Assembly: GCA_009746045.1 (NCBI GenBank) | Contig: RPFO01000104.1 | Span: 1,957,948 to 2,021,947 of the forward strand | Source: Mesostigma viride | Lineage: Eukaryota > Streptophyta > Mesostigmatophyceae > Mesostigmatales > Mesostigmataceae | Length of the DNA stretch: 64,000 bases | Reading direction: 5' to 3' | In this document: one piece after another, positions 2,262-64,000 of the stretch | Position numbering within the stretch: position 1 is the stretch's first letter | How the letters are laid out: each line of letters opens with the position of its first letter | Position numbers and translations under genes: made by a program | The notes under the pieces: generated by a model | The model's database searches: none | Told to the model about the DNA's origin: nothing | What the model saw: the letters and a program-made list of their open reading frames with translations, nothing else

Positions 2262-5200
2262 CTAGTACATGTCGGCCGCGATAAGCACGACCAACGCAGT
2301 CCAACCGGTGAATGGATGTGATCCCTTCCCCTCGGCGCGTGTCTTGTCACCATACTGCTCCCACAAATAATGGGTCCTTGCGTAGCACTCCTGCGGCGTG
2401 CAGGGGGTAGAGCGAGAAAAACGAGAGAGGAATCAAATAAGTTAGATGAGCTAGAAAACCCTTCCATGTGCACATGGTACCGGTTAGGGCGAGCAACTCA
2501 AACACTTTGACAACAAGGACTCAGCAAGTTTGAAAAGATTTTTCGAGAGCAAGCATGCGCAGAGGGCACAGCCCGGTGTCCTTCAATGCAAGCCCGGTTT
2601 TGCAGTTGGTGTGCAAGTCGTGCATTGTAGGTGCATCTACTATATCTACTATATCTACTATATCTACTATATCTACTATATCTACTATATCTACTATATC
2701 TACTATATCTACTATATCTACTATATCTACTATATCTACAATATCTCGATCGACAAGTGCAAGGTGAGGAACAAACCGTGCGTGGAAACCCGCCCACTCG
2801 CGCTGCTGTGCCTGCTTGCTGCTGACGGCATCATCAATGCACCTACTTCCGAGAAAACACCACAGCATGGAACAAGTAGTACTACGTATCAAGGAAGACA
2901 AGTTGCCACCAAGCCCCTTGCATGTACCAGTTCGCGGGCTCGCACCAACACATGAGACAACTGGAAATACAATACTACTACTTTATACTGTCTCTTCTTG
3001 CTTTCTGTAGTGTATTTACTACTAGTACAATCATACCATGTTGATAACCAATAGTGTCACTAGTACAATTATATCATTTTGATAACCTCTAGTGTCACTA
3101 GTACAATTATACCATGTTGATAACCTCTAGTGTCACTAGTACAATCATACCGTGTTGATAACCTCTAGTGTCACTAGTACAGTTATACCATGTTGATAAC
3201 CTCTCGTGTCACTAGTACAATTATACCATGTTGATAACCTCTAGTGTCACTAGTACAATTATACCATGTTGATAACCTCTATTGTCACTAGTACAATTAT
3301 ACCATGTTGATAACCTCTAGTGTCACTAGCACAATTATACCATTTTGATAACCTCTATTGTCACTAGTACAATTATACCATTTTGATAACCTCTAGTGTC
3401 ACTAAAAAAGTATTGCCATCCAGCGCCACTGCACTGGTGTGCTCCGGGGCACGTAGCAAGTACACAGCCGATAGCTGCTCATGTAACTCATACCTAAATA
3501 ATACTGCCGCCGCACCCGTATGTTTCCAGGGACGGGGTGCCAGGCAACAGTCACGCTCACGACAAATTGACAGGCAATACGCCAGGTAGGCGTTGCCAAG
3601 CTCAAATACGATAAAACAAGGGCCACCCAACGCCGCCCCACCTGGATGTTCCCTAGTACAGCTTGACGTAGACTAGCATACAGCTCCCCTGCACGCGCCG
3701 CATGAGGACCCGCCACCTGGCGGTAGTGGTGCAGCGCCCCTAGCGCCAGGTAGTTGAGGTTGATCCAGACCGGCCCGCGCCAGTAGGGCGGGTCGTGCTC
3801 CGTGTTGCGCGCCATGTAGAGGCTGCTGTTGAGGGAGAGCGAGCGTAGGCCTGCGTCACGGCTCCACAGCTGGCGCTCGTCACCCAGCAGGTCGAGCACC
3901 TGGGCACGTTGGCATGGGTACCAGCCGTGATTGGCATTGTTTCTTAAGTTTGTGTTAGTGGGTCATGCATTAGTGTTAATAAGTCATAGCGAGGTTTTGT
4001 CACGCAGAGGGTCAAGCACTTGAGCAGGTTCGGGCGTACAGCAGTAAAACACATCACGGTCCATCAAGCGAGTGGCCGCTCATTCCCCGAAAGGGTAAAC
4101 ACCTGGGCACGGTTGCGACTTCTCGTTCACTTCAACTTCGGTCAGCAACGATATGAGAAGTAAAGCAGAGCTAAAGATAGTATGATAAGTAACTATAAGA
4201 AGTAACAGAGTGGTATGCTTGGTAAACTTGCATCGATGAGAAGGGCAATGGATGCTGTCAAGATCCTGGCACGGAGGGATACCAGGGACCGTTGCATTCG
4301 GGAGGACTGGGCACCCACGTAGTGGGCAACATGGGTGATGTACAGCAGCATACCCATGGCGATACTAAAATACTACAATACTATAATACTACTAATATCA
4401 AACTACTATTAGTAGTCTATTATTAGCAGTAGTAAATAATTATTACAACAAGCAGCAGCGTGCATCCACCTGCACCGCCCCGAATCCCCACTACAGGCGA
4501 AACAGACTAATAGGGGAGATCAACTAGAATGCAGTCTCACCCTGCACCTCCCTGAATCCCTACTACAGACTAGAGAACAGGCTGAACGGACTAGTGCAGG
4601 TGGCTGCTCTCGACACTACTGATAACTGCTGCTTGCTGGCTGCTCTCGACACAATAACGGAGAATCCACCGGCACGAATCCGTTCAGTCTGTAGTAGGGA
4701 TTCAGGGAGGTGCAGGGTGAGGCTACATTCTCCCCCGCTCCCAAAAAGCAGGCAACAATATGCAGTGGGCACCCACCTGGCCCAGCGGGGCTGACTGCGG
4801 GTCGAGTAGCTTCATGAGCAGCGGGAAGAGGGTCACGTAGCCCACGTGGGGCACGTGCCGCATCTTGGGCCGCCCCGTGACCTCCCGCACCACCGACGTG
4901 CGCGGCGGCTGGCCCTCGCGTTCGGGCGGCAGCATCTTGCGCCGCAGAGCCACCTGTTCCCGCAAAAACAATGGACAACGAAAACAATGGACAACAGTAG
5001 GATGCAAGGATAGCAATACCAACATCCCCTTAATCTCAAGTGGTCAGCCACCTGTTCGCATCACAGGTCAAGGATGAAAATGCACACATTACGCACATCC
5101 TGTTGTAAAGTGGTCAGCCACCTGTTTGAGGCACAAGTCCAGGATAGCGATAAACTTATCCATATACAAGTACGAACCAATGGTAATAATCTACCCAAAT

Positions 5201-8200
5201 TGCAAGGAGAATGAATAGAGACGGCTGGCAAAAGAAAGGCGGAACCCCGAATACATGCATGGTCAGAACTCAGAAGAGCGTGGTCATAACAGCGGCAAAT
5301 TATGCCTAACTTGCTTACAGTCCCCAGAGGCTCACACAAAAAGATTGGTTGAGTATGCCCAATTTCAACTAGGCCCCACCACCAGAAACAAAAACTCCAC
5401 CCACCACACGTAATGGCACGCATGCACATCGTAATATAATAAAGCACACATGGCCATATTGGGAACCGAAACAAATTGAAAGCAGATGAATTCTACGTAT
5501 CTGGCAATCCCCCCCCCCGCCCCCCCGCCGCCAATAACCCTACCCCTTGGTGTGGTGACGATATACATATACAGAAGCACTAGGTTTCACCTCCCAGGTA
5601 TTCCTCCATACTGTAGTATTCATCTAGCAGCGGACCCCCCCCCCCTCTCATGACCATCCACCCTCTTGGCGTGCTTGCCCAAGTCAAAGAAACCCGCTCG
5701 TGATCAAATTCTTCCTCCTTGGAGGCCCATCGCTACCACCCCACCCCAACCCACCCGCTCGGTGTGGTTCCCAAAATCGAAGAAGCCGCCCCGCTTTGCG
5801 TCAAAATGGACCGCCTCCAGCGCCCGGTTGTCGGCCAGGTGGGCGGCGTCGGCCTCGTACGCCGCCAGCTGGCGCGACGGCGCCCCAACAAGGCGGCCAA
5901 TCGCGGCCATGCAGCGGGAGGCCAGGGCCATCCAGCACCACAGGTCCACGTGCAGCTCTTGGGGTGAGGGGTGTGACGCGCGCGGATAGTCATCCAGGCC
6001 TGGTGATGGGTTGGGGAGTGGGGGGTGGGTGGGTGGGGGGAGGGGCGAGAGGAAGACGACCTGTGAGGTGTCAGATGATTTCATGGTAGATAGGAGAGTG
6101 GGTAGATAGTTAAGCAGGGTAGATAGTTAAGCGGAGGGCACTAGTATCAACACTGACCATCAACATTGGTATTAAGACGGCCTAACCGTGTGCTAGTGCG
6201 ACTGCAGAGCGTTTTGTGATCAACCAACGCTGACCATCACCGTTGGTATTAACACAGGGGGGACGCTCCAGTAGTTGTCAACCCTTTCATGCGGCTCCTG
6301 CTTGCAAGCGCCAGGTCCCCCTTGGCACGCCTAAATGGGGGATATCTCCATCTTCCTTCCTTCCTTCCTTCCTTCCTTCCTTCCTTCCTTCCTTCCTTCC
6401 TTCCTTCCTTCCTTCCTTCCTTCCTTCCTTCCTTCCTTCCTTCCTTCCTTCCTTCCTTCCTTCCTTCCTTCCTTCCTTCCTTCCTTCCTTCCTTCCTTCC
6501 TTCCTTCCTTCCTTCCTTCCTTCCTTCCTTCCTTCCTTGCTCTGCCTGTCTTGCATGGACACCCACCTCTGCCGTATTGCCCTCTCTGCAACGTCATCAC
6601 GGTGACGAATGCCCGTGCTCTCTGGCTGAATGGCAAGAATATAAGAATCAGGAAAAACCAACAAATGCAGATACTATAAATGCCGCCCCCCAACAGCCAA
6701 CCTGATGGAACTGGTCAACACGGAGCCTGCCTGACATGGAAGGTCCGAACACAGCCTACCTGAGGTGAGTGTCTTTGCGTTAAGCTCGCGCCCGTCCCCT
6801 GAACTGGGATCCCTCCCCCGCCACATGAACCCCCGAGGATCGGCCCCCCTCTGCGTGGTGTTAAACCAGCGGTACCACACCTCCAGCCGGGGAAACGCTG
6901 CGCGCAGAAACTCCAAGTCTTTATCCACGTCGCCGCCGGCACCCAGCCTCTCTACCGCCACATCGGCTGGGGCGTCGCCATTGCCATCGACCGCATTCTT
7001 CTGGGTGGCCTGCCCATCCTCCTTGTCGCTGCTGGCCTTGTTGCTACGGGATGACGTCGCGCGCTCCGCTGACATCACGCGCTCCGCCATGGCCATCAGT
7101 GGCAGGAAGAGCGTCGGCGGGTTTGCGTGGCCAGAACTCTGCACGACAAACTCGGCAGGGACTTTGCGCGCCGCCTCGGCGCCCAGGATCTGAGGAGGGC
7201 CGTGGGAATAAAGATTTGGGAGAAGGATACAGGCTCATTAATCAAAGCAATAAACAATCAAAATACGTGCACTGGAAGGGTGGGGTGCAAAGCCCAGCCA
7301 GCACTACGAACAAACCCAAGTACCGTCGATAATAAAAGTGTTAAGGTGAGGGTCCTATGCCAGACCCCCCAAAACCATAATATGGAATAACAGGCAAAGC
7401 TGGCCTTGGGGCACCCAAACTATGATTTTGCCATGTAAATGGGATGTGTGGGGGTCCATCCCACCTACTGATGGGGGGTATATACCCCTTTTAGTGACCG
7501 GTATTACGCAAAAACGGACAAAAGACGCTACTCTAGGGGCATATCCCCTAGGACAATGGGGGCACAATTACTCATGTTTCAATATATTCCCATATTAAAT
7601 CGTATATGGTGAGGTTGCCTACCTATTTGGAGCCCCGGAATGATGAGTATTATTGAAGTTATTAATTTTCCCCTAAAAACCGTACTTTTTAAGGCTGAAA
7701 AAATAAATCAAATCAAAAACACATATTTAGAGCCTGGGGAGATATACACAAATACTACACATATCGACAATTAATGCCACAAAATCTGAGCTCATTCTGA
7801 GTACAAACGTAGAAGTTATAGCGTTTGGCAGTTTGCCACCTGTGCAGACGCTAAGGAAGGCAATAGTGAGTATTAAGGCACACTAACACTTCCTATGCCA
7901 TCCAAAAGGCTCCTGACCATACCCAATTTGACCGCAATGTACAAGGAGGTGGCTGGGCACATCATGTGCCCTTGCCTTACCTCGACACGGGCAACCTGTT
8001 GCGTGTGTGCACAACAATGAGGCAGGTAGCTCTACATGCCTAGCCAACACTTCTTATGCATATTCCAGGTTTATGGTGTGGGCATCATCCCAAAACCAAG
8101 CTGTCCGAATTCAAACACACCCTGGAAAGCCATATCCACTAATTGCCCAACCAAGGGTAACAACAGACAGTCGACAGAGAAAGCATAAGTATCATACATG

Positions 8201-11200
8201 CTGCTTGCCAAGGCTTCTTACCATGGTTACCTTGCCTTGCTAGCATATGAATTAGGGCTCTCCCATTTTAGTGGGAGAAAGGCAAACAAGACGACGATAA
8301 CCCCTACCTACATGCAGTTCCACCCATGCAGTATGCCCCTCAGAACAACCACTGCCACCTTTCTTTCCAGCGCAATTGTTTGCCAAGAAACAACCTCAAG
8401 CTTGTGAGCCTCTAACCACAATGAAGCCGCTGCTAAGAAAGGCTGCGTCAATATTCACACAAAACTGAGTGCTGTTAGCAATCTCCTTCCAAGAAAGCAC
8501 TCAGCAAATCCCTGACAACTTGACGGCATGCCACGGCTCACGCTTTGACACGTCCCAGCCATGCAACGTACATACAAAACACTAAAAGGTGCCAGAAATC
8601 TGGCGATGCGCAGCACGGAATGGCATTCTACCTGGCCCTAACTGCACGGAAAGAAGCCGAAAACTTGCGTTGATAACCCATAAAGGAAGCGAAGCATCCA
8701 TAGGGTGACGCTGAGCACACGATCGTACCATTACCGGCGTTGTCCTTCGCCCAGCGGCGCAGGAAAGAACAACCTTCCATGGAATAATATAAGACGCGCA
8801 TCCCGCGAGCCTGGAGAATGTCTTACCGATCATGAAGGAAATCTTGCCGAAACCCAGCAATTTTTTTAAAGCTTTACCCATAACAATTTAAACGCATCCT
8901 TGACGCTAGGTAAAGCCCATAAAACCTGACAATCACCGCCGCCTGCGTGCATTCTAATTTATTCCTCTCGACGAAAACATCAGATTGGACCCCCGTGGCG
9001 ATGGTCATCAATAAAATCATCGACACTGCAAAAAACGCGAACTCCGCTAAGAAGGAATATCATAAACTTGTCGTCTGTAAGATTAGCACAGTTTCTCTGC
9101 ATTCCGCGAGCTATCTTTTTCTACTCTGCCTGAAAGCACGTCGCCATGGCCAGCTCCGGTAGGGGTGCGCGCACCGTGCACCACTTTTTCACGGTACGGA
9201 CGGGTACCGCGAATTTTTTCGGCGCCAAAAAATTCGCGCTGGGACCGTCACCTTAATATTAACATTATTATAATAATCATATTCTACAGTTCAATGGGAA
9301 GACGGGAATACGCCCAGGCTTCTCTCAGTACCAGGGGGGCAGGCCACAGGTGAAGATGCCGGAAAACATATACACGGGGCCTGCGCTGGTTATCTCATCG
9401 ACATAGGGTGGCGCCGAAGCATGGAAGTCCACAAGAGGCCAACAGCAGGCATTACCCAGTCAAGATATGTGGGGGGCGCTAAAGTCGCACATGCTGGGTT
9501 TTGGGAACTGCACAATGACACACATAAGTAAGTAAGTACTTGCGTGTCATGCGCATCCGCATGCCACGGAGACCAATGCTAATCTCATTAGAAAAATAAT
9601 TACGTAAAAGTTAAACAAACAGAAAAATATTGTCTGCACCATGCCCCACCATATAGTAATGGCTGTGTATGACACACATTGACACATACAGCGGACTACT
9701 ATCCAGCAAAATTGCACTGCGATTGGCGATTGGGCGGCTGCAGCGTCAACTAACTACATCTGGGACGGCAGAATCACAACCGCACCTGCCCGCGCGTTAT
9801 CCGCCGCCCACGTAAAGAAAGGCTCCGTATGAACAGCCCACACAAAGAAAAGCCCTTGAAATTCATTGTTTCCAAGTCGCTACGGCAGTCTAATGGTGAG
9901 GAGCGCACCTGCTCGCGCGGGATCCAGCCGTTCACGTTCATCAGGTCCAGCCAGTGCGCCAGCACATCGCGGCGCAGCGCCGGATCCCAGCGACCGACCA
10001 GCAGCTGGTGGAAGCCCTCGTCCCACAAAAAGCCGCGGGGGAAGAAGGAGCGGCTGGGGGTGGCCGTGAAGAGGGGCGCGGGCCAGTAGTGAAGGATGGG
10101 GGCCTGGGGGAACGGGGGGGGGGGGGGAGATGGGGTGTGGCAGGTAGCAATGATGATGTGGCAGTGCAGTAATTGAAAACAAAAAACAAAAAAATAGAAT
10201 TGATAATAGTGATGTGTGGCAGTAAAAAAATGGTGTGTCGCAATGTATATTGGTGTGGCAGGTAGCAGGAGTGGTGGGCGGTCCGGTAGCAAGACGGTGG
10301 ATCGTGAGTGATGCAGACAACGACAAATTTTACGCGGGTTTTGAAACGATGATGTGGCGCGGGGAGGAGACGACACTGGTGGGTGGGGGGGAGGTTAGAA
10401 CGTGCCGACGAATGCCAACAGATACCGACAAATGCCGGCAAGGGAAACCAATGCCATGCCCTGTGTCCTTGCACCTGCGCACTCATTCGTTCGTCCACGC
10501 ACGCACGCACGCACGCACGCACACAGCAGGCGGGAAAGCATCAAATCTGCCAAGAATGTGCAGACGCCAGCATTGTGAACCCACAACGTGAAAATGCCCC
10601 CTACGAACCGTAGAACCCCCCCAAACTACCGCCAGCATTATCAACTTCACCGAGAGGCAACACTAACTACTAAACCCATAAGCAGGACAAGGGTTATATA
10701 TTGGTATATGGAGCATCCTGCATCCAGCACTGTAGTTAGATATGTCGTCATATAGTACCGTACCATATTTAGATATATAGTAGTAAAGATATATAGAACC
10801 TTATTCAGATAGGGACCCAAGCAGCTTACCTGCTGCCCCGCGGGCACCCCCTCAGTATCCCTCACGAGGGACGACCCGTAGAAATAGCCCATGCCGCCCA
10901 GCAAATTGCTCAGCGCGCCGCGCAGCATCCCCCCCGCACTGCTGACGCCCGCGACTGCCCCTCCCCCCTCCCCCACAGGGAACGTGGCGTCAAACCGCGC
11001 ATCAAACGCCGCCTCGCGCGCCTCAAACAAGGCACCCAGGCCAGCACCCGACAGCTCCAATGGCACGGGGGGCACTGGCACCTGTGAATCGTGAAGCTTG
11101 GGGGTGTCTGGGTGGCCAGCCCCAGCCCTCTTTTGTCCGCCCTCATCACCCGCGTTCGAATCCGGTGCATTGATGACGACTCTATCATCGACGCCTGACT

Positions 11201-21780: not shown

Positions 21781-21984
21781 TGTACATGACAAAGGGAAAA
21801 AGAAAATAGAAAAAAGAAAATGTAAATGGTAATAATACGAACAATAATAAATTAAGACAAAGTGAAGAGTAATAATAATAACAATAACAAAAATGTTGTC
21901 TCTTTGATAACAAAAATGGAATATTTAGGGAAGGTCATTGCTGGGATGTGGTCATTGCTGGGATGTCCGCACCGTAGTTGCTGG

Positions 21985-22805: not shown

Positions 22806-25800
22806 CTATGTGGTAGTTGGCGCGACGGTGGCAATGCCTGCTTGCACCTCGTCCTCGGCCAGACACCTGGCAATTGTCTCGACCGTGCACAAGCGGATGG
22901 CCTTGAACGCGTCCAGCACCCGCAAGAGCGTGTGCTCAAAATCATTGGAGTGGTCTTGGAACGGCGCCGCACGGTCAAAGTAGTGATAGCGGATGTTGAC
23001 CTGGCGTGCACGATCCATGCCAACGATGCAGGCAGGGGATGCAAGGCGGTTCGAGGGGCGCAAGGGGTGCACAAAGCTTATTGGCGAAACAAATACACAG
23101 CAAGGTGTGAGAAGCAACAAGTACCAATTGCACGACAGCGGATTGTTGAACCGAGATAAGTAAAGGAAATTACGATTCCAGACGCAAAACCAGGCTATGA
23201 GAGGCTCTTGTTTATTGTTCATGGACTAGTGGAGTAATGCACAGCTTGCGAATAGGGCCTTCAAGTTAAGATGCCAGATGTGCTGAGCCCTCCGACCCCT
23301 ATATATGTCTGTTATACTTGTCGGCATGATCTCTGACGAGATGCCCGATGTGCTGGGCCCTGCTAACCCCCTCACTCCCCACCCTGCCCCCCTCGTGGGA
23401 CTAAAAGAAGAAGTCGGGACTCATATCTTGCAGCCTAGCCCCTAACTTCCCACCTTTGTGCTGGGCGAGTCGACACTGTAGACATCCAAACACCAAGTCG
23501 TTGTTAACCATGTTCAACAATCCCTGGCATTACTTTTGTGCTGGGTGAGTTGAACCTGTAGACGTCCAACGAGTACACCATGAACAGTCCTACTGACATC
23601 CAGTCTTGACAAAGTGCTTGGTGCTTGGTTCCGGTACCTTTGTGCTGGGCGAGTCGAACCCGTAGACGTCCACCCTCTGGCACATCTGCAGCAGGAACGC
23701 GATGCCGACAAACCCGGTGGGCGCGCTTTGCACGCCTTCCCACGTGATGTCATAGCCCTCGAGTCGCTTCATGACCGTCTTGTACAGCGTGATGGAGGGG
23801 ATTAGGAACTCAGGCGCCAGCAAGTAGATCGTCTCGTCGGGGTACCTGGGGGGGGGGGGGAGGGGGGCGCAAGGTGGACGGGAAGACAATGGCAGAAAAG
23901 TATTTTACTGCATGTTGTCTTGTCTTCAAAATCTCGCAGTCACATCGGAGAAGTGAACCCAATCCCCCCAGAAAGCGTTGAGAGAAAGATAAGGCAAGGA
24001 AGATGTGGCAAGGGGGAGGGGGGGAGGGAGGAGACGCGAGAGAGCCGGGGCGACAAGGGGCATGAAAGACAAGGCACAGGGGGGGGGGGGGGGGGGGCAA
24101 TGGGCAGGCAGAGGGGGGGAGAGGGGGATGGGCAGGCGGGCGGGGGGGGGGCGAATCCAAACACAGGGCAAGAGACAAAAAAGATCCAGGCAATAAAGAG
24201 TGGGAAACCAGCCCCTGTTCAGGTGAGTGTTTTTATCACTCACCTGGTTTTTAAGTGGTGTTCACCACCTGACAGGGGTAAAGAGAGTGGCAACCTTCAA
24301 GTAACACGAGGGTGACTTTTCCTCCTTTATTTCATAGCGAACATAAATGGAGGGGGCTGGATAAACGAACGTGAGTGTGCGAGTCCCCGGCATGATGCCA
24401 TATTTGTGGCAGCTCTTTGCGTTAACCCTCAAACTGGCCTATGGGCTCGTTAGCACCCAGGCGCACTCAGCGTGGTGGCTTCATAGGCCTTTCACCGAAA
24501 CAGGCCCCTGCGCCACATTCACAGAATGATTGCCATCGTAACACTACTCGAAATCGCCCAATAACCAACTCCTCTCCCTCTCTCTACAGCTCACCTCTGT
24601 ATAACTGCACCCCATACCAGTTTCCCACTAGTCCCTACTAACGCGGATCCTCCTCCTTGGCCTCGCATTGTCGTAATAACACCAACCCATACCTCTTCTG
24701 AAGCATGCCGCAGTAGCGGTAGCTTTCTTCACGCTACGGCTGAATGAAGTATCACATGAATGAATGGCCACATCAGCGATACCAGAACCAGCCCCTTTCA
24801 TCCGTTCCCAAGACGTTTTCCTGCCGCCCATACCTCTTCCGGACCATCCCGTAGTAGTGGTAGCTCTCCGCACGCCACAGCAGCAATATGTTCCGGTGGT
24901 GGCCGGCGCCCTTTTTCCGATGCCCGCCCCCCCCGGGGGGCTCGTCCTCGACGATACCGTTGTGGCTCTCCAGCAGCGCGTCGCCCCACTTGCGATTGAG
25001 CAGGCGGAAGGTCGTCTTGGAGCCCACGTGCTGCTCGAATCCCTTGGTTACTCTGGTGGTGATGATGGCAGCGGTAGGGGGAGGAGAGGGGGGCAAGGAG
25101 GTTTGGGGGGGAGGATGGAATTGAGGGATGCCGAGAGGCAGGGACGAGAGGCTGGGGGGAAAGATTCTGGACTTCCCAGGGGAACCCGCTCGCGGCCAAG
25201 GAGGTCAGATGCTGGATGGCACAGACCTAGTCGGGTTGGGGCAGACAACATGGGACCGATAACAATGGGCCGGCATGGTGATTGGGCCTGGTAATTGTCC
25301 ATGGTAACTATACCTGGTAATTACACCTGGTAATTGGACCTGGTAGTTGGACCTGGTAATTGGACCTGGTAATTTGACCTGGTAAGCAGACCTAGGGGCG
25401 GACATGTCATCCGCAGGGGGAGGGTTCTATGTGGGGGAGGGTGGGGGCGTGCTAGGCTGCCCCGTGGGGGCGTGCAAGGTACGACAGGCTGTGTGGGTGG
25501 CAGGCCGAGATGGGAGTTCCAAAATCCTAAGTGTGCCTTGTGTGTGTATGAAGTGAGACAACTATTCCTGGACGCATGGCGATCCAACTATAGTGTAGTG
25601 TGTTTGTATGTGTGCGTATGCGTGCGTGTGTGTATGTGTGCGTGTGTGTATGCGTGCGTGTGTGTATGTGTGCGTGTGTGTATGCGTGGGTGGGTGTATG
25701 CGTGCGTGTGGTGGGTGGTTAGTGGTAAGCATTCAGCTGTGTACCACAACTGCCTTGGAGGCAGAGGCATTGCATTGGCTGGGTGGGTTTTGGACATTGA

Positions 25801-40400: not shown

Positions 40401-41380
40401 GACACCGACCTGCCCGAGGTGTTGGACTATGTCAAGCTCAAGGCGGAGGTGTCCACGATGGAGAAGAAGGACATGGACTGGACGCGCAAGGTAGGCTGTA
40501 TGGAGGCTATATACAGCTAGTTTACTAGGTGTTTTGTTTTGTCGTAGAGGAAGGACATGGACTGGACGTGCAAGGTGGGCCACTGCTAGGCTGCTTTTGT
40601 TAGGCCAGTTGGTCAGTTACCTAGTTGTGCTTTGATTGAAGAAGGACATGGACTGGACTCGCAAGGTGGGGTAATGTTAGGCTGGATACTTGTAGTTGTC
40701 TTGCTGATGGTTGTGTGATAGAAGGACTGGACGCGCAAAATTGCTGTTGTTAGGCTAGTGGGTGTACTAGATGATTGCTGTAGGCGTGAGCATGGACGCA
40801 CTGTAGTGGTGGGCCGGTTAGAGTACTTGGTATTTGCTTGAGTAACTTGCCTTATGATGGAATACGGACAGGGGCTGGACTGGATGCGCATAGTGGACTG
40901 GTTGTAAGCTAGTGAGGGGGTTGTTTGCCACTTGATTCTGTGGGCAGGTCTTGTTAAAGTAGGTCCTACGTTCATCTTGCGTGGTACCTCTCACGTGGCG
41001 CATCTATCTCATTCCCCAGGCAGAATGCAATGTCCATTGGACTACTACTCATACAATGTCCTCCCTTCCACAAATGCTTCCCCACTATTCTTGCCTTCAC
41101 CATACCTGGCTCGCTTAATAATATTCACAAAGAAGTTGTCTCTCTTAATAATACTTCCACCGCATCGCCTCCACCAAAATGCATTGACTACACCAGGGCT
41201 GAATGCAAGATTTGCTGTATGCATGCCATGCCCCTCCCTTTTACGTTTCGTATCGCCACCATGCAATTTGCATCCGTCACCAATATAATTGACCGCCTCC
41301 ACCAGGTCGAGATTTCGGAAATGGAGATCAAGCGAACCCAGCGGCAAGTGCGCACGATGCAGAGAACGATGGGCAAATAG
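34479..41380 (+). CDS. CFAP263: CFAP263 (CCDC113) ciliary coiled-coil protein, 7 exons
   Basis: Axonemal/centriolar-satellite coiled-coil protein; in motile cilia CCDC113 works with CCDC96 near the radial-spoke and N-DRC region. Exons (plus): 34479-34634, 35761-36110, 36916-36994, 37559-37726, 38687-38818, 40356-40490, 41306-41380. All junctions are GT-AG and in phase, giving 364 aa (human relative about 377). The N-terminus is acidic, followed by the ILRKEIQLFETFLQ segment. Exon 2 has a Lys/Glu linker and LTQEEKLEVATSEIE. Exon 3 has RAKDTMIEKLRLKNATLK. Exon 4 has KEEMGEVLHVVDFDQLKIEN and NNELLRLKL. Exon 6 has LPEVLDYVKLKAEV, and the last exon RKVEISEMEIKRTQR. This is the DUF4201-type helical domain of CCDC113/CCDC96. 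The match over the full length favours CCDC113; FAP184/CCDC96 is the alternative. Its presence implies motile flagella. Confidence 0.93.
35440..35720. repeat. Degenerate short repeat, CGCCC(T/C)ACGCAT type
   Basis: Loose repeats of CAACGCCCCACGCA and CATCGCCCAA-type words in intron 1 of CFAP263, ending just before the CCCCCAG acceptor of exon 2. ORF readings through it are not the gene's N-terminus. Confidence 0.7.
36225..36670 (+). repeat. Four echoes of the exon-2 donor edge (CFAP263)
   Basis: The exon end GTCGCGGAGAAGATGACGCG, then GTGAG (36091-36115), recurs as GTTGCGATGAAGATGGCCCG, then GTGTG (about 36226), GTTGCAGAGAAGGTGGCGCG, then GTGAG (about 36333), GTTGCGGTGAAGATGACGCG, then GTGAG (about 36439), and CACGGAGAAGATGACGCGGG (about 36645). 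Each is followed by a related GATGCTGGCATCTGGCA-like phrase, as at the original, so a unit of exon edge plus early intron was copied. Confidence 0.92.
36479..36612. repeat. Minisatellite, 34-bp unit
   Basis: Four copies containing GAGAGGTATTCTGGACAAGG in intron 2 of CFAP263. Confidence 0.93.
36995..37236 (+). repeat. Minisatellite, 48-bp unit that begins with the intron-3 donor (CFAP263)
   Basis: Five copies of a 48-bp unit starting at the donor itself: GTGAGTAAACAATTACACAC ... CTCTATTATGTAT, then ATGAGTAAAC. Each later copy has ATGAGTAA in place of GTGAGTAA, so a pseudo-donor GAGTAA is repeated but the GT is lost. Confidence 0.93.
37372..37455. repeat. TC dinucleotide microsatellite
   Basis: About 40 TC units in intron 3 of CFAP263, followed by a C-rich tract to 37540 that leads into the exon-4 acceptor. 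Confidence 0.97.
37820..38220 (+). repeat. Three echoes of the exon-4 donor edge (CFAP263)
   Basis: The exon end CACAACGGGCAAGACCGTGC, then AG-GTAA, recurs as GACAGACAAGACTGTGCAGG, then TGAG (about 37822), CACCACGGGCAAGACCGCTC, then AG (about 37912), and CACCACGGGCAAGATGTTGC, then CGGTAGG (about 38194). A separate 70-bp tandem duplication (AGCTTTC(T/C)TCTCTATAAATA) lies between them at about 37975-38110. Confidence 0.85.
38380..38595 (+). repeat. Echoes of the exon-5 acceptor edge (CFAP263)
   Basis: CCAGGTGCTTACCTCGGTGA, then AGAAGATGCTGTCCACGCTG (about 38547-38587), closely parallels the true start CTAGGTGCTCAACTCGGTCA, then AGAAGAAGCTGTCGACACTT (38683-38722). A shorter copy CCAGGTGCTGCCCCC is at about 38384. 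If spliced, the long copy would read LTSVKKMLSTLGG, so it could act as a mutually exclusive alternative exon; it lacks an obvious donor. Confidence 0.88.
38852..38890 (+). repeat. Echo of the exon-5 donor edge (CFAP263)
   Basis: GGCCAAGTTCGGGGAGGACG, then TGCGCGGATTCGTGAG, repeats exon 5 positions 38777-38801 (GGCCAAGTTCGGGGAGGACG, then TGCGC) only 40 bp after the donor. Confidence 0.93.
38966..39950. repeat. Large decamer satellite, CTCTTCTCCC (about 985 bp)
   Basis: About 98 tandem copies with occasional 1-bp indels, in intron 5 of CFAP263. Pyrimidine-only on the transcribed strand. The very long Ser/Pro/Leu and Arg/Glu/Gly reading frames on both strands (402 and 465 codons) are artefacts of the array. 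Confidence 0.98.
40228..40260 (+). repeat. Echo of the exon-6 acceptor edge (CFAP263)
   Basis: TGCTGCAGGTGGCGGCGGAG, then AAGCAGTACA, repeats the true exon start CCTGCAGGCGGCGGCGGAG, then AAGCAGTACA (40349-40377), about 120 bp upstream, with its own CAG acceptor. Confidence 0.92.
40541..40895 (+). repeat. Four echoes of the exon-6 donor edge (CFAP263)
   Basis: The exon end AGAAGGACATGGACTGGACG, then CGCAAG-GTAGGC (40464-40496), recurs at about 40548 (GAAGGACATGGACTGGACGT, then GCAAGGTGGGC), about 40641 (GAAGGACATGGACTGGACTC, then GCAAGGTGGGG), about 40721 (GAAGGACTGGACGCGCAAAA) and about 40873 (GGGGCTGGACTGGATGCGCA). Identity falls with distance. Two copies keep a usable GT donor. A following phrase GTTAGGCT(A/G)G is also shared. 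Confidence 0.95.
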
Positions 41381-42191
41381 GGCTGGCCCATGGATAAATC
41401 GGAATAGAGACTATTTCTCATGGACGGATTGGAGAATTCTCTCATAGGTACAGGATGCCCAGCTCATTTCTGTACTTGTGGGCATTGTCCTCATTGAATC
41501 CACTGCAATGGGATTCTATGATGGTGGGCATAATTGCACCGGAATGCCGAGAATTTGGAGTGTGCACGCATATATCGAACATTTTATGAAATACCTGCAG
41601 TTGGTGCCAGCCTACAAACTTTGGGCCCCCCTGAACCATGCAAGGGGAAGCAGCTGACTGATGGATATTGTGTCAAGCGGGAGAACCATCCTTGGATGTG
41701 ACTTGCATCATCTAGCTCGTCTGACAGCAACGCAACAAATGCATAAGCTCATGGGCGACATAAATACAGACAGAAGTCTCATGTACATGCAAACAAGTTT
41801 TGAACACGTAAGATAAGACAATGCTGCTTGGACACCTGTAAAGATAAAAAAGTAATAATTTTATATGCATGGCTAACACTAGTTGCATGTCTCACTTACA
41901 GTACTAGTAACGTTAACATATAGTAATTTTAGTTCGATTGTTTGCCACCATGCATCCATCTCCTGTCGGGGTAATTATATAATTTTAATGCTCTGTGACT
42001 CCCCAACAGGACCACGAGTATATTATTGAGACAGCTATATATTCGATGCTAGCTGGATGCATGCAAGGCGGTCCAACGTATACATCGTGTGAGGACTAGA
42101 GTACCTGATTTTGATTTCAACGTACGTAGTAGTCTCTCTTAGTTCTTGGCGGATCGATATATATTAATAATATATAATTACTTACAGCAGA
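41381..42191. other. Intergenic with one LINE-like 3' hairpin
   Basis: Contains GCTCTGTGACTCCCCAACAG (about 41991-42010), a decayed copy of the LINE terminal hairpin, with ATAT-rich sequence after it. No gene seen. Confidence 0.5.
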
Positions 42192-43544
42192 GTGAAATCA
42201 CTCAAACCAAAGCAAACGCCCAGCTATAGATCGATACCTCACCTCAGCGAGACTCAGCACGGCTTCCGTTCAGGTCGCAACACAGTACAGGCGCTCTTCG
42301 CTACTCGCAGACTGGTGGAGGAACTGCAACGCCTTCAGCCTGGTGAGTCCCCTTTGCACCTTGTGCTGGTGGACTTCATCAAAGCCTTCGATTCGGTTTT
42401 CTGGCCTGCGCTTTGGGACATCCTCGAGTTGTTCCGGATCCCCCGCCCCTTGATTGCTGTCATCCGCAACCTGTATGAAGGGTCCACCACTTCGGTGCGC
42501 ACTTCTTACGGGACCACGCCCCCATGCCCTTTACAGAAGGGTGTGTGGCAGGGCTGCGTGCTGTCGCCCTACCTGTTCATTATTGTTGTCGAATACGTAA
42601 TGATTCAGGCGCGCAAGCGATTTGCCCGCATCGTGGGCAGGGAACCAGGAGTGCAGGTTGCTAACAAATTCTGGCATGGCGGTGCGGACACGGAGATTCG
42701 GCTAGCAGACATCATTTACGCAGACGACACCACCCTCTTCGAGGACACTGAGCACGTGCACACATGGCTTGACTGCCTGGCTCTCGAGGCCCGTGCAGTG
42801 GGGCTTGAGGTCAGCAAGAAGACAGAGGCCCTGGCGGTTGGGCTCACCAACCCAGCGCCGCCCCTCTATCTCCTAGACGGCTCTCGAGTCCTGTATCGGG
42901 ACCGCGTTAAGCTGCTGGGCAGCCTGCTCCCTAGCTGCGAGGTTGATGTGGACCACCGCATCTCCCTCGCCTGGCACGCTTTACGCCAGTACCGGGCCCT
43001 GTGGCGCAAGCCCCTGGGCAAGATCGAGAAACAGGACCTGTTCAAGGTCCTCGTCCTTCCTGTTCTCACGTATGGCGCCGAGACGTGGACCCTCACCGCC
43101 GACCTGGCCCGCAAGCTGGACGGCGCGGTCACCAGCATGCTGCGTTCCATTTTCAGAGTAGGATACGCTGCTCATGTCCGCAATGAGGACCTGTACCAGG
43201 GCATGCCCTATATCACCAGCACAATTAAGCAACGCCGCCTGCAGCTAGTAGGGCACCTAGCTCGCACCAACCAGGTAGACACCTCACGTGGCCCCCCCGC
43301 AGGACTGCGACCAGCCCAGCCTGGCCGGCACCTCCTGACGTGGGCTGGGCCCAGTGATGTTAGACGCCGCAAGGCCCGCACCTTCAAGGAACAGCTAGTA
43401 GAGGACATGGGGGGCCTAGGCCTCTCCGTGATTTGGAAGAAGATGATGGACAAGGCCAAGTGGGCCCAGGTCATAGAGGAGAACGAGCCCCCCCCAGTGG
43501 GGAAGCGCCCGCGTGTGCAATCCCGCGGGAGGCACGCTAGATAG
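42192..43544 (+). mobile_element. LINE reverse-transcriptase ORF (5'-truncated ORF2)
   Basis: An uninterrupted 450-codon frame with RT blocks in order: HGFRSGRNTVQAL, LVDFIKAFDSVFWPALWDIL, LQKGVWQGCVLSPYLF (the QGxxLSP block), DIIYADDTTLF (catalytic YADD, residues 176-179), KLLGSLLPS, and LVLPVLTYGAETWTL, then a C-terminal basic region. There is no endonuclease domain upstream and the first Met is not convincing, so this is a 5'-truncated insertion. The open frame suggests it is recent. It is the best reference for the broken copies at 120-900, 15767-16740 and 20970-21280. The family is non-LTR, apurinic-type LINE by RT style; the clade was not determined. Confidence 0.95.
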
Positions 43545-43745
43545 CTCCCCCTAGGGCAGCGTGCGGCTGCCCAGATAGATGTTGTAGTTAGAATGTTGTT
43601 AGATAGATGTAGTATGTAGCCAATGTAGATAGATTAGACCGGTAGGAATGTGTGCACCCATCCATCCATCCATCGGGGTTAATGCTCCGTGACTCCCCAA
43701 CGGGAGCACGAGTCTAATTAATTAATTAATTAATAGATCGATATA
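43545..43745 (+). mobile_element. LINE 3' UTR, terminal hairpin and TTAA tail
   Basis: After the ORF2 stop, GATAGATGTAGTATG-like sequence leads to CCATCCATCCATC, GCTCCGTGACTCCCCAACGG, then GAGCACGAG (hairpin CTCCC-CAAC-GGGAG) and an ATTAATTAATTAATTAATAG tail. Equivalent ends: 45884-45960 and 48604-48662. Confidence 0.85.
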
Positions 43746-50770: not shown

Positions 50771-50773
50771 CAT

Positions 50774-54082: not shown

Positions 54083-56800
54083 ATGGAGTCGTTGCACCAA
54101 GAGGCGGCCCGACGGAGCGGCGTGACCAAGGAAGAGGCATTGCAATTGGACAGCCAGCATCTTTACCACCGGTTCGGCCAACAGGCATTGGAGCAGCTCT
54201 CGCACGAGTTTTACCGTCGGGTATTCGCGGACGAGCAGGAACCCTGGTTTCGCAACATCTTTTCGAACGTGACGCGGCGCGATGCGATACAGAACCAGGT
54301 ACGCACTGGAGGTCAAGCGCGCGGATGCAATCCTAGTCCCAAACCAGGTACCCTGCACGTCTCAGCCTGGCAGCACGCTTGTTCCGTGTTCAGGGGGATC
54401 CTGTGCTCCTGGCGGACATTAGCCGCGGCGCGCTGGTACCTTCTGGTTGTGTCCTTAACAACGCCTGGTCGCCTCTAATTGCGTCGCAACTCGCAAGTCC
54501 GTTGGGCCACTGCGGAATATCGGGGATGGAGCATTAGTCCTTTCCCGCAGTCGCATCCGATGCGATTTTGAGAGGAAAACTTGACCCTCACGGACCAGGA
54601 CTTGGTTTGGCTGCACATTAGGACTTGGTTGTAATAGTTAGGGGAGACCGTTGTGCTTCATCCGCATTAGTTAGGGGAGAGCGTTGTGCTTCATGCGCGA
54701 TAGTTAGGGGAGAGCGTCGTGCTTCATCCGCAATAGTTAGGGGAGACCGTTGTGCTTCATCCGCAATAGTTAGGGGGGACCATTGTGCTTCATCCGCGAT
54801 GCATGACCAACTGCTATGCTTCGCGTGTGCCACCCCTCGGTGGCGTGGCCAGGGGTCGGTTGGCGCGGATCTAGTGCCAAGTTGAAGCCCGTCATCCGTT
54901 TCATCGAGCCACTTGATCACCTCTCTTGTTCCTGGGTGTGTGCCACGCCTCCCTGTAGGTGGACTTCTTCGTGGAACGGCTGGGCGGTCCCCCGACGTAT
55001 ACCGAGCGTAAAGGTACGGCAAGGTGCCCTTTGGTTCAAACTGTAAGAGTGCCGACACCGCTATGTGGATTGGTTAACTGTTCGCACCCCCGTTGGCAGT
55101 TTCCAAACATATCATAGATGGTAAAGTATTAATAGTTTTACTGAAGGGTGTAGTCATGGATGGTTCCAAACATATCGTAGATGGTAAAGTATTTACAGTT
55201 TTACTGAAGGGTGTAGTCATGGATGGTTCCAAACATATCGTAGATGGTAAAGTATGAACAGTTTTACTGAAGGGTGTAGTCATGGATGGTTCCAAACATA
55301 TCGTAGATGGTAAAGTATTTACAGTTTTACTGAAGGGTGTAGTCATGGATGGTTCCAAACATATCGTAGATGGTAAAGTATGAACAGTTTTACTGAAGGG
55401 TGTAGTCATGGATGGTTCCAAACATATCGTAGATGGTAAAGTATGAATAGTTTTACTGAAGGGTGTAGTCATCGCCACAGGTTCCCCCCACCCCCGAGCG
55501 AGGCTCGTTCCCTGTTACTTTTGCGGAAGAGTGGATACTAGTTACTTTGCAGGATACTAGTTACGTTTGCAGAAGAGTGGAGCTGCAGCGTGGCCTCTCG
55601 TGCATGGCCATGCAGCCGGTCTCTCTCTGGGCATGAGCACATGGGCAGGCTTGCCTATGCAAGGATCTAGATGATCATTGCCAGGGACAACCAATGCAGC
55701 TTTCATGGCTACCGGACTCTCAAGGCGACCCCATGGGAGAGTGGCAGGATTCCAGTTTGGCAGATTGCATGCGGGGGGAAAATCTGCTTGCCTATTTGTC
55801 TATCGCTCTGTTCTAGCGCTCTATGCTATTGCTGTACGGATCGCTCTATCTATCTCTCTATTCTATCCCTCTATCTGTCGGTCGATCAAGCTAAACCCGC
55901 AGAAGCTGAACCCTCAGAATGGGTGTCGCCCTCCTGAAACGCGGGTTTCTGTGCCCCTGGGTATGTGTGGGCACAGGGGTGTGTGGGTGGGCCACCTTGG
56001 GCGGGGCTGGCAGCTTGAGCGTTCTATCGGCTCCGTTTGTGCGCGGATAACATTTATCTTTCAAGTATGAGCTTCTACACCTTTAAAGATGTTGGGCTCT
56101 AACTAATAACCACACTATGCGACCTCTTTTGCGCGTTGAAGAAGCAACTTTGTCTGTTTATAGGGTTTTAAGTGTTGCTGTCGTTGTTGCTATGCATGCC
56201 GCAGGCAGCATGGCGCTGATCGGCCGGCACGCGCCTTACGAGATCTCGGAACGCTCGGCGCGCCGCTGGCTGCAGCACATGGAGGCGGCGATGGAGGACG
56301 TGCCCGTGATCGCGGACGACGAGGAGGGCAGCGCGGCGTTACGGGCGTTCCTAAGGTGGGGTTTGTTAGTCAATTACCAACCACGCATTCGGTATAGATA
56401 AGCAGATCTGCTAGGTAAGGAGCACAGCACAGTACGGTGTTGTGTGCGTTCGGAGGTTGGTTAAGGGACTGCCAATGCTGCAAACACCATGTACTCCTGC
56501 GCTGATGTTGTATGTGGATACAGAAAGTAGAATATTAATGACAACCCTCCACTCGTTGCTATGGATTCCTCAAACGGACCACAATAGTGCAACTCTCCGT
56601 AATGTGCCACTTGGCTTCCATCAGAACCAGCACGAAACGAAGAAGAGTCGCTCACCCGTGCGTGCCTACATGCTCCCCCTTCCCCATCATGCTGCGCGTG
56701 CAGGCACACGGCCTACTTCCTGGTGGCCGGGAAGGGGCTTGTCAACGCGTGCAGGCCCATGGTCGGATACGGCGTGGCGGAGCCCAGTAAAAAGAAATAG
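54083..56800 (+). CDS. Truncated (2-on-2) haemoglobin, class II / plant GLB3-like, 4 exons
   Basis: Small haem protein binding O2/NO. Exons (plus): 54083-54298, 54959-55013, 56205-56355, 56704-56800; all GT-AG and in phase, 172 aa, close to the 170-175 aa of plant GLB3. Class II landmarks: FY with Tyr44 at B10, PWFRNIF in the CD region, QNQVDFFVERLGGP through helix E, proximal His99 in LIGRHAPYEI (F8), Trp112 in ARRWLQHM (G8), and the plant-type ending FRHTAYFLVAG. No transit peptide is evident, so it is probably cytosolic. Class II globins have slow ligand release, suggesting sensing or NO/H2S detoxification rather than transport. Introns 1 and 2 each hold a minisatellite. Confidence 0.95.
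54637..54805. repeat. Minisatellite, 33-bp unit
   Basis: Five copies of TAGTTAGGGGAGACCGTTGT, then GCTTCATCCGCAT, in intron 1 of the haemoglobin gene. Confidence 0.96.
55095..55475. repeat. Minisatellite, 63-bp unit
   Basis: Six copies containing CCAAACATATCGTAGATGGT and AGTTTTACTGAAGGGTGTAG in intron 2 of the haemoglobin gene. Copies differ mainly at one site (ATTTAC versus ATGAAC), which alternates between copies and suggests two-unit expansion. Confidence 0.97.
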
Positions 56801-61125: not shown

Positions 61126-64000
61126 ATGGACGCCCATGATTCCGCCGATATTTTTCTCAGCGTGGAAGCATTTCTGGAGAGCTGCCAAACCTCCGCAAGT
61201 CAGGCTTATGCGAATTTTAAGGCTATCCTGGCCCGCTTAGACGATCCATCTCTTCGCGTGCAGGCGCGTCGCTTCTTGGCCAAGATCGAGGACGCGCTTA
61301 GCGCACCTGCCGCTGGTGTCGATGATCCGCTCTCCTATTACCACTGCAAGTTTGTCGATCTGCCATTGTCCGGCGGGGTCGACTTTGGGGCTCTGGGCGA
61401 GTATGTCGCGGGGACGGCGGGACCGGGTCGAGGCGGGGAGACGCCGGTGCTTTCGACTCCTCGCGAGCCGACTACGCGCCAGCTGCGGTCCGTCGACGCG
61501 GACGACGAATCCTCCGAGTGGTCGGGCCGGCTCCAGAGCGTGAAAATGCTGGTCCTGCCTTCCATCTTTGTCCCTGAGAACTGGTCATTTACTTTCTACG
61601 AAGGCCTCAGGAGGGCCCCTGCGGCTTACTTTGCAGGGAGGGAGGTGATCGAGCTGGGCACGGGAAATGGGTGGATCAGCATCGCCGTGGCCATGGAGGC
61701 CTGCCCCCGCAAGGTAGATGCAGAACCAAGTATTGACGAGGAGTTGGAAGCCACGCAGCTTGCCTTTTGATGCTACGAAGTGCGCCTCAACTGATTTGGC
61801 CTCAACCGTGCACAATTGTTTTTCTATAATATTATGGGAGGATCCAAAAGCCTGCTGTTTAGGTTACCGCAACATGGCATGGTTGCGCATTAGTTCCCTA
61901 AGTTACCTAGTTTTGGCCCTTGATTTGGAAAGAATAAGTTTGGTCGGCCTATATGAGTTTCGTTGTGTAGCAACAGTGTTGATATTCCAAACAGCTTGCT
62001 TCCTTCTTCGCCCCCCTGCCCCCCCCGACCCCCTTCCCTCCCGGGGGGCATGCCCGCTCAAGCAGTAACATAGCAGTTAGCCATCTGTTGTCCCTCCCCT
62101 GCCTCCCCACCCTGCACCCACCCACCCACCCACCCACCCACCCACCCGCCCGCCCGCCCGCCCGCCCGCCCGCCCGCCCGCCCGCCCGCCCGCCCGCCCG
62201 CCCGCCCGCCCGCCCGCCCGCCGCCCGCCCGCCCGCCCGCCCGCCCGCCCGCCCGCCCGCCCGCCCGCCGCCCGCCCGCCCGCCCGCCCGCCCACCCACC
62301 CACCCACCCACCCACCCTGCGCAGATCATCGGCCCCAAATTTAACCCGCACTCCAAAGCACCAGCTGGCTGTCACAAAGTGTTCAACCCCCCTAGATATG
62401 GCCCTCTTCGTCCCCCCCCCCCCCTCCCCTTCCTCCCACTCCGATCATCAGGCTACGCGTCAGCCCACACTTCGTACTGTAGCAAGCAGCAGAGCTGTAA
62501 CTCATTATACCGTATATTCTATATTCAACATTAGGCCTCTCTTCGCCCCCCCACCCACCCCCACCCACCCCTGTTCCCCCCGCGAAGATCATCGGCCTCG
62601 ACATCAACCCGCGTGCGGTCGTCTGCGCGCGCATCAACCTCTACCTCAACGCGCTGAGGCGCGACGGATACCCCCTGCCGGGTCCCTGGAGCAAGTGGGG
62701 GGGGGCACCCACGCCGGCGTCCGGGGGTTCCTCCCCAGAGTACACAAGTAGCGGCGGCACGGGGCAAGAATGTGCTCCCCTTGACCTGGCCGCGGCTCAC
62801 AGCGGGGGGGCGCTGGGTGGGGCGGGGGCAGTGGCAGCCGCCCCCCCATCGTCTGGCATGTCGCCGCCGTCGGCCCCCCATATTGCGGCTGCCAGTGCGC
62901 CGGTCATGACGGCGTCACTGCTGGACATTGTGGAGTTCCATGAGTCGGACCTGCTCGGGTGGTGCATGGCACGGGGGACGCCAGCGGATACTATCATCGG
63001 GTGCATCCCGCAGGTAATAATGACAGTCTTCTATTGTTAGCATTTATTATTAGCGTTTTACTTCATTGTTAGCGTTTCGTGTGTGACAAGCTGGATAGTG
63101 GTGGCCGACACCAACATCAGGTGCTTGCTTACGTTGCTCGTTGTGTATCCGGGGCGGTGAATCCTGTACCTCCACCTGCCAGTTGCTCAACCCGGACCCG
63201 GACGCTTTGTTGATATCTGTGTTTGGGAATCGTCGTGTTGAGCCCATCCCTGTGGCAGGTGCTGAACCCCGACCCGGACGCCGTGCGCAAGATCATCTCG
63301 GAGAACCAGAGCGAGGACTTTTTGTATGACCTCAGCAACTACTGCAGCCAACAGGTATGACCTCAGCAACTACTGCAGCCAACAGGTATGACCTCAGCAA
63401 CTACTGCAGCCAACAGGTATGACCTCAGCAACTACTGCAGCCAACAGGTATGACCTCAGCAACTACTGCAGCCAACAGGTATGACCTCAGCAACTACTGC
63501 GGCCAGCAGGTATGCCATCAGCGGGTACTGCTGCGAGCAGGTATGACATCAGCGGGTACTGCTGCGAGCAGGTATGACATCAGTGGGTACTGCTGCGAGC
63601 AGGTATGACATCAGCGGGTACTGCTGCGAGCAGGTAGGGCCACTGACCATGTCCATGTCGCAGCAGCCAGCTGACTAGTAGTTGTCGCATAGGGGCATCC
63701 ATTAACTGTTGCAACTTGAATATTATAACAAATACAATGAGACAACCATCCTATAGTAGTATAAGCATAACACAGATGGTGGCTACCCTAGTGGCTTCTA
63801 TGTGGCTACATGTGCCAGCGCTAGACTAAGTCAACAGTGCAATCCTAACACAGATAGCGGGTGCCCTAGTGACTACTATTCGGCTACATTTGCCAGGGCT
63901 AGACTAAGTCAACAGTGCAATCCTAACACAGACAGCAGGTGCCCTAGTGACTACTATTTGGCTACCTTTGCCAGGCACTCCTCGCAGGACTATATATGTC
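61126..64000 (+). CDS. MMT: Methionine S-methyltransferase, 5' part (3' end outside window)
   Basis: Makes S-methylmethionine from methionine and S-adenosylmethionine. Exons seen (plus): 61126-61713, 62588-63013, 63259-63354, all phase 0, giving 370 codons; plant MMT is about 1,080 aa, so most of the protein, including the aminotransferase-like C-terminal half, lies beyond the right edge. Signatures: VEAFLESCQTSASQAYANFK at the N-terminus, LPSIFVPENWSFTFYEGL, SAM-binding ELGTGNG (176-182) then WISIAVA, IIGLDINPRAV and INLYLNAL at the start of exon 2, VEFHESDLLG, the motif-IV block IIGCIPQ and LNPDPDAV spanning exons 2-3, and SEDFLYDLSNYCSQQ. Exon 2 has a Gly/Ala/Ser/Pro-rich insertion of about 80 residues not expected in plant enzymes. 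S-methylmethionine is also a DMSP precursor in some algae and plants. Confidence 0.94.
62115..62316. repeat. CCCA/CCGC microsatellite (about 200 bp)
   Basis: CCCA units flank a long CCGC array in intron 1 of the methyltransferase gene. Gly/Arg/Ala-rich readings on the minus strand are artefacts. Confidence 0.97.
62320..62350 (+). repeat. Echo of the exon-2 acceptor edge (MMT)
   Basis: GCGCAGATCATCGGCCCCAA, then ATTTAACCCGCAC, parallels the true exon start GCGAAGATCATCGGCCTCGA, then CATCAACCCGCGT (62582-62614), and keeps a better acceptor (CAG) than the real one (AAG). Confidence 0.85.
63180..63216 (+). repeat. Echo of the exon-3 acceptor edge (MMT)
   Basis: CCAGTTGCTCAACCCGGACC, then CGGACGCTTTG, parallels the true start GCAGGTGCTGAACCCCGACC, then CGGACGCCGTG (63256-63286), about 78 bp upstream, with its own CAG. 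Confidence 0.9.
63355..63633 (+). repeat. 31-bp tandem array of the exon-3 donor edge (MMT), nine copies
   Basis: The last 30 nt of exon 3 (TATGACCTCAGCAACTACTG, then CAGCCAACAG) followed by the donor GTATGA is repeated with a strict 31-bp period. Four exact copies, one with two changes, then four of a diverged form (TATGACATCAGCGGGTACTG, then CTGCGAGCAG). Every copy ends CAG-GTA, so ten potential donors are lined up. The unit is not a multiple of three, so use of a later donor shifts frame except in steps of three. Confidence 0.97.
63750..63975. repeat. 78-bp tandem repeat, about three copies
   Basis: Copies contain CTAGACTAAGTCAACAGTGC, then AATCCTAACACAGA, in the next intron of the methyltransferase gene, at the right edge. 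Confidence 0.9.

Follow-up and report, generated by a model that had tools for sequence, protein, structure and literature searches.

Copies of exon edges and their splice sites in the adjoining introns of the streptophyte alga Mesostigma viride

How introns lengthen in a unicellular streptophyte alga is the question raised by a 64,000-nt stretch of nuclear DNA of Mesostigma viride (hereafter the window), in which a sequence-only reading had noticed that exon ends recur in the adjoining introns of four genes. According to the genome paper, the mean intron of this alga measures 1142 bp and repeats make up 30% of the intron space (PMC6947507). Within the window, 22 of 27 introns are 0.5-1.7 kb long. 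The analysis showed that exon-edge echoes, as we call these copies, are real in M. viride introns; a search of the open-access literature found no published description of them. They are best read as products of a local and error-prone duplication that spans splice junctions and often leaves unrelated sequence between copies, by a mechanism that we infer.

Six genes of the window supplied exons. Four Mesvir1 protein models from three genes, glucosidase I, CFAP263 and a sialyltransferase-like gene (two model forms), match the window exactly in every exon and leave GT-AG introns between. The glucosidase I reading frame matched protein P0001 (jgi Mesvir1/803) at 99%; CFAP263 was supported by PDB matches, and glucosidase I and the desaturase by Pfam. 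The Mesvir1 desaturase model did not chain as a whole and mapped as three exact segments, from residue 4 to the end of the protein. The exons of a globin-like gene and of methionine S-methyltransferase were placed from reading of the sequence; their names, partly those of the sequence-only reading, are putative. The complete set holds 28 introns, one of them cut by the window end, and 55 splice junctions. In the models of the sialyltransferase-like gene (22809-33296), PF00777 stands beside several further Pfam domains, presumably EGF-like, here in an alga. The exons at 54083-55013 appear, from a motif, to resemble truncated haemoglobin, and a 63-nt array (about six copies, 55101-55472; TRF) lies after them.

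Each junction was represented by a query of 30 exon and 15 intron nt, which was scored against its own intron and against 100 dinucleotide shuffles of that intron. The own-intron score exceeded all 100 shuffles at 19 of the 55 junctions, where chance would give about 1 in 100, and at 23 of the 55 the query outscored all 27 other introns. Mean scores were 14.6 in the own intron and 9.4 both in the reverse-complemented intron and in the shuffles, so that the opposite strand lay on average at the shuffle level. Junctions above all shuffles numbered three in glucosidase I, seven in CFAP263, six in the sialyltransferase and three in methionine S-methyltransferase, with none in the desaturase (0/4) or the globin-like gene (0/2). 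At one of the 19, in CFAP263 intron 3, the signal comes from an exon-free 48-nt array of five copies (36996-37233) that starts at intron base 2. Thus, exon ends do recur in the adjoining introns of the four genes that had been named, on both strands and for different exons, and the claim withstood the comparison of true with shuffled introns.

In addition, as much as 250 nt of each exon was scanned strictly and without gaps, with a control space twice as large. It returned 22 exon-derived segments at 13 junctions, five of them belonging to one 31-nt array, and none in the doubled control space. In 21 of the 22 the junction-side end fell within 5 nt of the junction; the offsets were 0 nt in 15 (including the five of the array), 1 nt in three, 2 nt in one, 5 nt in two and 18 nt in one. 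Similarly, exon windows were significant in 16 of 54 cases at the junction itself, in 5 of 48 at 15 nt inwards and in 2 of 49 at 30 nt; further in, the windows tested at 45-150 nt gave no significant case. Chance similarity or an assembly artefact is almost certainly not the explanation. The region is indeed rich in tandem repeats (67 TRF rows), from which such artefacts could be suspected; against this, exon-edge controls matched in 0 of 110 cases in the window and 0 of 456 outside, most copies differ from their exon (only one of the 33 tallied echoes had no exon difference) and the exon structure agrees with the Mesvir1 protein models. The echoes in the window are the following:

3642-3899 (-), glucosidase I exon 6, exact protein mapping: acceptor echoes at 3999-4030 and 4077-4116 and a weak donor echo in intron 6 at 3506-3527 (22 nt, 82%, outside the 19 junctions); alignment.
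5658-5694 (-), donor echo of glucosidase I exon 4 (5755-5999): 33 exon nt plus GTGG, 76% identity, above 100 of 100 shuffles.
9781-9813 (-), donor echo of glucosidase I exon 2 (9909-10103): 29 exon nt plus GTGCG, 82% identity; shuffle test and alignment.
36220-36246, 36328-36396, 36434-36463 and 36632-36665 (+), four donor echoes of CFAP263 exon 2 (end 36110), three with homologous spacers; alignment.
37813-37840, 37907-37946 and 38184-38217 (+), three donor echoes of CFAP263 exon 4 (end 37726); alignment.
38498-38590 (+), acceptor echo of CFAP263 exon 5 (start 38687): 40 exon nt plus a C-rich tract; alignment.
38855-38879 (+), exact 25-nt copy of the tail of CFAP263 exon 5 (exon end 38818), its junction-side end lying 18 nt within the exon; strict scan.
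40228-40255 (+), acceptor echo of CFAP263 exon 6 (start 40356): CTGCAG plus 22 exon nt, 27 of 28 identical; alignment.
40551-40580, 40638-40722, 40724-40757 and 40876-40911 (+), four donor echoes of CFAP263 exon 6 (end 40490); alignment.
23531-23568 and 23452-23488 (-), two donor echoes of the sialyltransferase exon 23638-23845: 35 exon nt each, 89% identity, no spacer homology found.
24686-24740 (-), donor echo of the sialyltransferase exon 24834-25052: 48 exon nt plus GTATGGG, 80% identity; alignment.
27177-27200 (-), donor echo of the sialyltransferase exon 27635-27828 at a distance of 455 nt, with a minisatellite between; TRF and alignment.
28441-28471 (-), donor echo of the sialyltransferase exon 28550-28645; alignment.
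28712-28736 (24/25) and 28808-28825 (18/18) (-), two acceptor echoes of the same exon, 28550-28645; alignment.
30223-30240 (-), acceptor echo of the sialyltransferase exon 29947-30039: GCAG plus 14 exon nt, 17 of 18 identical; alignment.
62281-62349 and, weaker, 62414-62466 (+), two acceptor echoes of the methionine S-methyltransferase exon starting at 62588, both with a C-rich tract; alignment.
63177-63205 (+), acceptor echo of the methionine S-methyltransferase exon starting at 63259; alignment and strict scan.
63324-63636 (+), methionine S-methyltransferase 31-nt array of 10 copies, the unit being 30 exon nt plus the first intron base and copy 1 the exon end (63354); TRF and alignment.

In the description of these copies, alignments with fewer than 8 exon nt were dropped; those scoring below 14, and MMT.i3, were excluded from the codon, spacer-homology and distance tallies, and both MMT.i3 and CFAP263.i2 from the identity profiles. 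Low-complexity windows and segments were excluded from the window, strict, outside, repeat-pair, flank and side scans and from the combined profile. The number of copies per junction ranges from one to about nine, the maximum being in the 31-nt array, and in the window alignments donor edges are copied downstream and acceptor edges upstream; both points agree with the sequence-only reading. It gave 15-45 nt for the exon part, and the range is 12-48 nt in the 33 alignments scoring at least 14 (MMT.i3 aside); one echo outside the window reaches 53 nt. The reading had also seen flanking intron in the copies, which is true of the splice dinucleotide (mean identity 0.79 in 24 window echoes) and less so of what follows, for the intron part covers just 1-7 nt in 18 of 33 alignments and 10-58 nt in 15, several of them low-identity or C-rich. 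In the same 24 echoes mean identity is 0.60-0.87 across the last 25 exon nt and 0.87 in the last 5, and on the intron side falls from the dinucleotide to 0.52 in the next two bases, 0.47 in the next three and about 0.33 beyond (0.32 at bases 8-10). When 38 echoes were combined, some whole-unit arrays included, the values were 0.84 for the dinucleotide, 0.62 for the next four bases and 0.46-0.47 up to base 15. Donor and acceptor edges behave alike. By eye, an acceptor-like AG is not regularly present directly before the donor echoes, and the idea that these are micro-exons was set aside.

For 17 of 29 junctions the distance to the nearest copy is 75-145 nt (64-141 nt for 19 of 29). Distance and identity were not correlated among 33 echoes (Spearman rho -0.07, p 0.68), and within arrays the nearer copy was the better one in 12 pairs and the farther one in 8, with 3 ties. 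The proposal that identity drops with distance, as in copies successively made and decaying, is therefore not upheld.

The higher similarity of the exon part and splice dinucleotide relative to the spacers could suggest that selection keeps the echoes as decoy or auxiliary splice sites. However, copies differ from their exons by 16.1 and 13.9% at codon positions 1 and 2, as compared to 22.6% at position 3, and this third-position excess of about 0.08 lies below the 0.12-0.19 of constraint models, in a test which presumes rough neutrality of the synonymous sites close to exon ends and in a tally from which the desaturase rows were also left out. Moreover, the GT identity of 0.79 is not above that of the last exon bases (0.87). 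From the sequences, such selection appears very unlikely; the codon-position pattern fits a recent, unconstrained copy with some synonymous drift of the exon better than long-lived constrained copies.

The survey was extended to 300 kb around the window, that is, to one neighbourhood of one contig, where exons were predicted ab initio from codon usage and splice signals learned on the window genes. In the window itself, at threshold 20, 25 of 38 predictions overlapped a true exon and 19 were exact, an evaluation made on the finder's own training genes. At threshold 22 the finder gave 79 outside exons (before the last 60 kb), in which 20 of 158 edges carried 24 matches and the controls none; 17 of these matches ended no more than 11 nt from the predicted edge and the other 7 deeper inside. 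At threshold 20 it gave 114 exons, of whose 228 edges 18 had a match, in 14 cases at most 5 nt from the predicted junction, as compared to 2 of 180 exon-interior windows and 0 of 456 controls. Part of these outside matches may be repeats called as exons. The echo-bearing genes outside include a protein kinase and Utp14, one exon of the latter having echoes at both ends; Pfam placed three of six predicted outside proteins above the family cut-off, with one sub-threshold glycosyltransferase and nothing for two. The clearest young, sharp-edged echo belongs to the kinase exon (L009 18-127; Pfam), whose 53-nt tail plus GTGAGT recurs at +140, the copy running to about 273, with 50 of 53 exon nt identical (three mismatches) and unrelated flanks.

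Taking window and surroundings together, a match was found on the own side of 31 of 283 exon edges, as opposed to 1 of 226 on the opposite side (Fisher p 1e-7) and 2 of 220 exon-interior windows (p 2e-6). In the window alone 13 of 55 edges matched and none of 1398 pairings with non-adjacent introns did (first 760 nt of each; Fisher p 7e-20), which bears out the adjacency that the sequence-only reading had predicted for flanking over unrelated introns. Intron ends are repeated as well, at 28 of the 283 edges (any position within the first or last 60 nt), in 9 cases with the run within 5 nt of the junction and against 5 of 566 controls; outside the window they are repeated even more often than exon edges (24 versus 18 of 228). 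The view that copying affects only exon edges was thus dropped. Windows of 30 nt from intron interiors likewise recur in the intron they come from, in 12-24% of cases depending on the distance bin and mostly in minisatellite introns (0 of 165 in one 2.7-kb intron), and, judging from 35 listed pairs, about seven isolated repeat pairs lie inside window introns.

Because introns repeat away from junctions too, targeting to junctions is unproven. The anchoring at junctions is partly expected without it, since a contiguous duplication delivers exon sequence into an intron only by spanning the junction, and selection on the exon then keeps the exon copy legible. A general account by small duplications explains adjacency, side, orientation and edge limitation most economically, and falls short of fully explaining why many young exon copies end near the splice site. 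A splicing-directed copying, in which for example splice-site-protected RNA fragments would template the repair of intron breaks, would yield ends at the splice site, and the 21 of 22 strict segments ending within 5 nt of it, the low mean similarity past the splice consensus and the likeness of donor and acceptor edges all favour it. However, intron ends are also repeated and any contiguous junction-spanning duplication yields anchoring, and we regard this particular mechanism as quite unlikely. It is doubtful, with somewhat more in its favour, that M. viride has a duplication process of any kind directed at splice junctions, repeatedly copying the exon edge with the splice consensus, typically 75-145 nt away and with no repeat family.

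The copies fall into two classes. Counting one echo per junction, the best-scoring, the flank beside the copy is homologous at 9 of 31 junctions and no homology was found at 22 of 31; for young copies (up to 10% mismatch) the flank is homologous at 8 of 24 junctions and not at 16. Whole-unit cases are clear, with units of 34, 64 and 104 nt, a case at a 303-nt offset that includes about 13 exon and 80 intron nt, and the 31-nt array at a donor. Spacers are similar in 5 of 33 echoes, in CFAP263 introns 2 and 4 and in one sialyltransferase echo. These cases would suit ordinary tandem duplication only, by slippage or unequal exchange with neutral decay, in which the edge would stand out since its exon source is frozen and the intron part decays in both copies. 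In simulations with simple models for substitutions and indels and with synonymous sites taken as roughly neutral, whole units under neutral decay kept a homologous flank in 121-142 of 150 echoes and in 84-96% of the young ones, far from the young junctions observed. A single old age can imitate sharp edges, at t = 0.4 or at t = 0.25 with many indels (35 of 150 spacers still visible), and one fixed age with many indels approaches the data better than a spread of ages. However, at t = 0.4 the simulations yield less exon identity (0.71-0.72, observed 0.82-0.87) and less GT retention (0.42-0.62, observed 0.79) than the data; the variant with t = 0.25 and many indels yields 0.76 and 0.66, respectively. 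Short-copy simulations gave a similar identity profile, with a codon-position excess of 0.05-0.08. We thus consider tandem duplication unlikely as the sole process; of the local tandem duplication that had been proposed, its local nature and its position across the exon-intron junction stand, and plain tandem copying as the general mechanism does not.

The direct repeats around roughly 40-110 nt of unrelated sequence also resemble insertions with a long target duplication, which would make the spacers introners or short mobile elements and the exon-edge pair their target-site duplication. However, beyond their own local arrays the spacers had no match in the window, a single 44-nt match was found in 304 kb, and the 83-nt kinase spacer occurs once in the 440-Mb assembly. 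With no spacer family in the window, in the 304 kb or, for that one spacer, in the whole assembly, this origin was rejected as highly improbable, and the opinion that the echoes are not one repeat family is sustained.

The account that we hold to, at about an even chance of being right, is that small recurrent duplications lengthen the introns, as had been proposed and as the data support, that those straddling a junction stay readable, and that repair of staggered or resected breaks with filler gives the unrelated spacers. An exon edge, usually of 14-55 nt, and a piece of intron would be copied into the intron next to it. In about one third of cases the neighbouring stretch of intron would be duplicated too, giving an ordinary tandem duplication, and in the remaining ones unrelated sequence would part the copies, as staggered-break repair would yield. 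Such a duplication could survive because one complete splice site still adjoins the intact exon; the exon copy would then be maintained by selection and the intronic copy would probably decay as neutral DNA. Existence, orientation, adjacency, limitation to the edge within exons, the two classes and the lack of spacer homology in most young copies are observed, and the repeated intron ends are what a general process would lead one to expect. That break repair is the cause and filler the source of the spacers is, like the neutrality of the copies, what we infer from these observations. Counting against break repair with filler, similarity stops abruptly, from 0.87 in the last 5 exon nt to 0.32 at intron bases 8-10. 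Filler in break repair is often copied from elsewhere, whereas the kinase spacer is found nowhere else in the assembly. Some copies are of an age at which flank homology could have been lost.

Among known processes, DNA end joining produces templated or filler insertions, which are short copies of nearby sequence, unrelated filler and sharp edges. The echoes are alike in all three respects, with sharp edges and unrelated intervening sequence at the 22 of 31 junctions that show no flank homology, and differ in being confined to exon edges and recurrent at one junction. Minisatellites and tandem repeats are matched by the 31-nt and 34-nt arrays at donors and by the other whole-unit cases; head-to-tail duplication of the whole unit, spacer included, is limited to the minority of 9 of 31 junctions, the copies at the other 22 having no neighbouring homology. 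In Drosophila, new introns are described as arising when exonic sequence that bears a proto-splice site is duplicated in tandem (PMC2891723), a process which shares with the echoes a local exon duplication with AG/GT at the splice junction. In the cases outlined there, two copies bound the new intron, whereas in M. viride they sit inside existing introns, sometimes several and on either side of the exon, the nearest mostly being 75-145 nt off, in introns mostly of 0.5-1.7 kb. For stwintronisation in Lipomyces, a duplication of the donor within an extant intron is proposed to arise via asymmetric double-strand break repair (PMC7138796). The likeness lies in the donor element duplicated within an existing intron; as described for Lipomyces, part or all of a six-nt donor is duplicated and nested introns result, whereas the echoes hold 14-55 exon nt and involve acceptors too. 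Introners of Amoebophrya likewise have direct repeats at exon-intron boundaries, and are described with inverted repeats, direct repeats of 3-5 nt and recurrent inserts (PMC7789003), whereas no family or recurring insert was found among the M. viride spacers.

That many introns hold exon-edge copies with a splice site points to an active local duplication in M. viride, giving longer introns and spare-looking splice sites. Since the exon is a slowly changing reference, the echoes are a datable record of intron growth. Moreover, by holding close likenesses of real splice sites, many introns amount to a natural experiment on the choice made by the spliceosome. If true, a junction-directed duplication would be a distinct route of intron lengthening, one that continually seeds cryptic splice sites.

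Other repeats of the region include a 972-nt array in CFAP263 intron 5 (38978-39949), with 98 copies of the 10-mer CTCCCCTCTT and a nearly pure pyrimidine strand (TRF), and perfect two-copy tandem duplications of 16-17 nt at 4965-4995, 6100-6132 and 21933-21966, which look like recent small duplications. A reading frame at 42171-43544 encodes a reverse transcriptase domain (PF00078), and near 43671, 45876 and 48594 there are copies of a GCTCCGTGACTCCCCAACGGGAGCACG element with TTAA repeats after it, possibly the 3' end of a retrotransposon. In the assembly, a Pfam search gave 58 chaperonin matches over 13 contigs.
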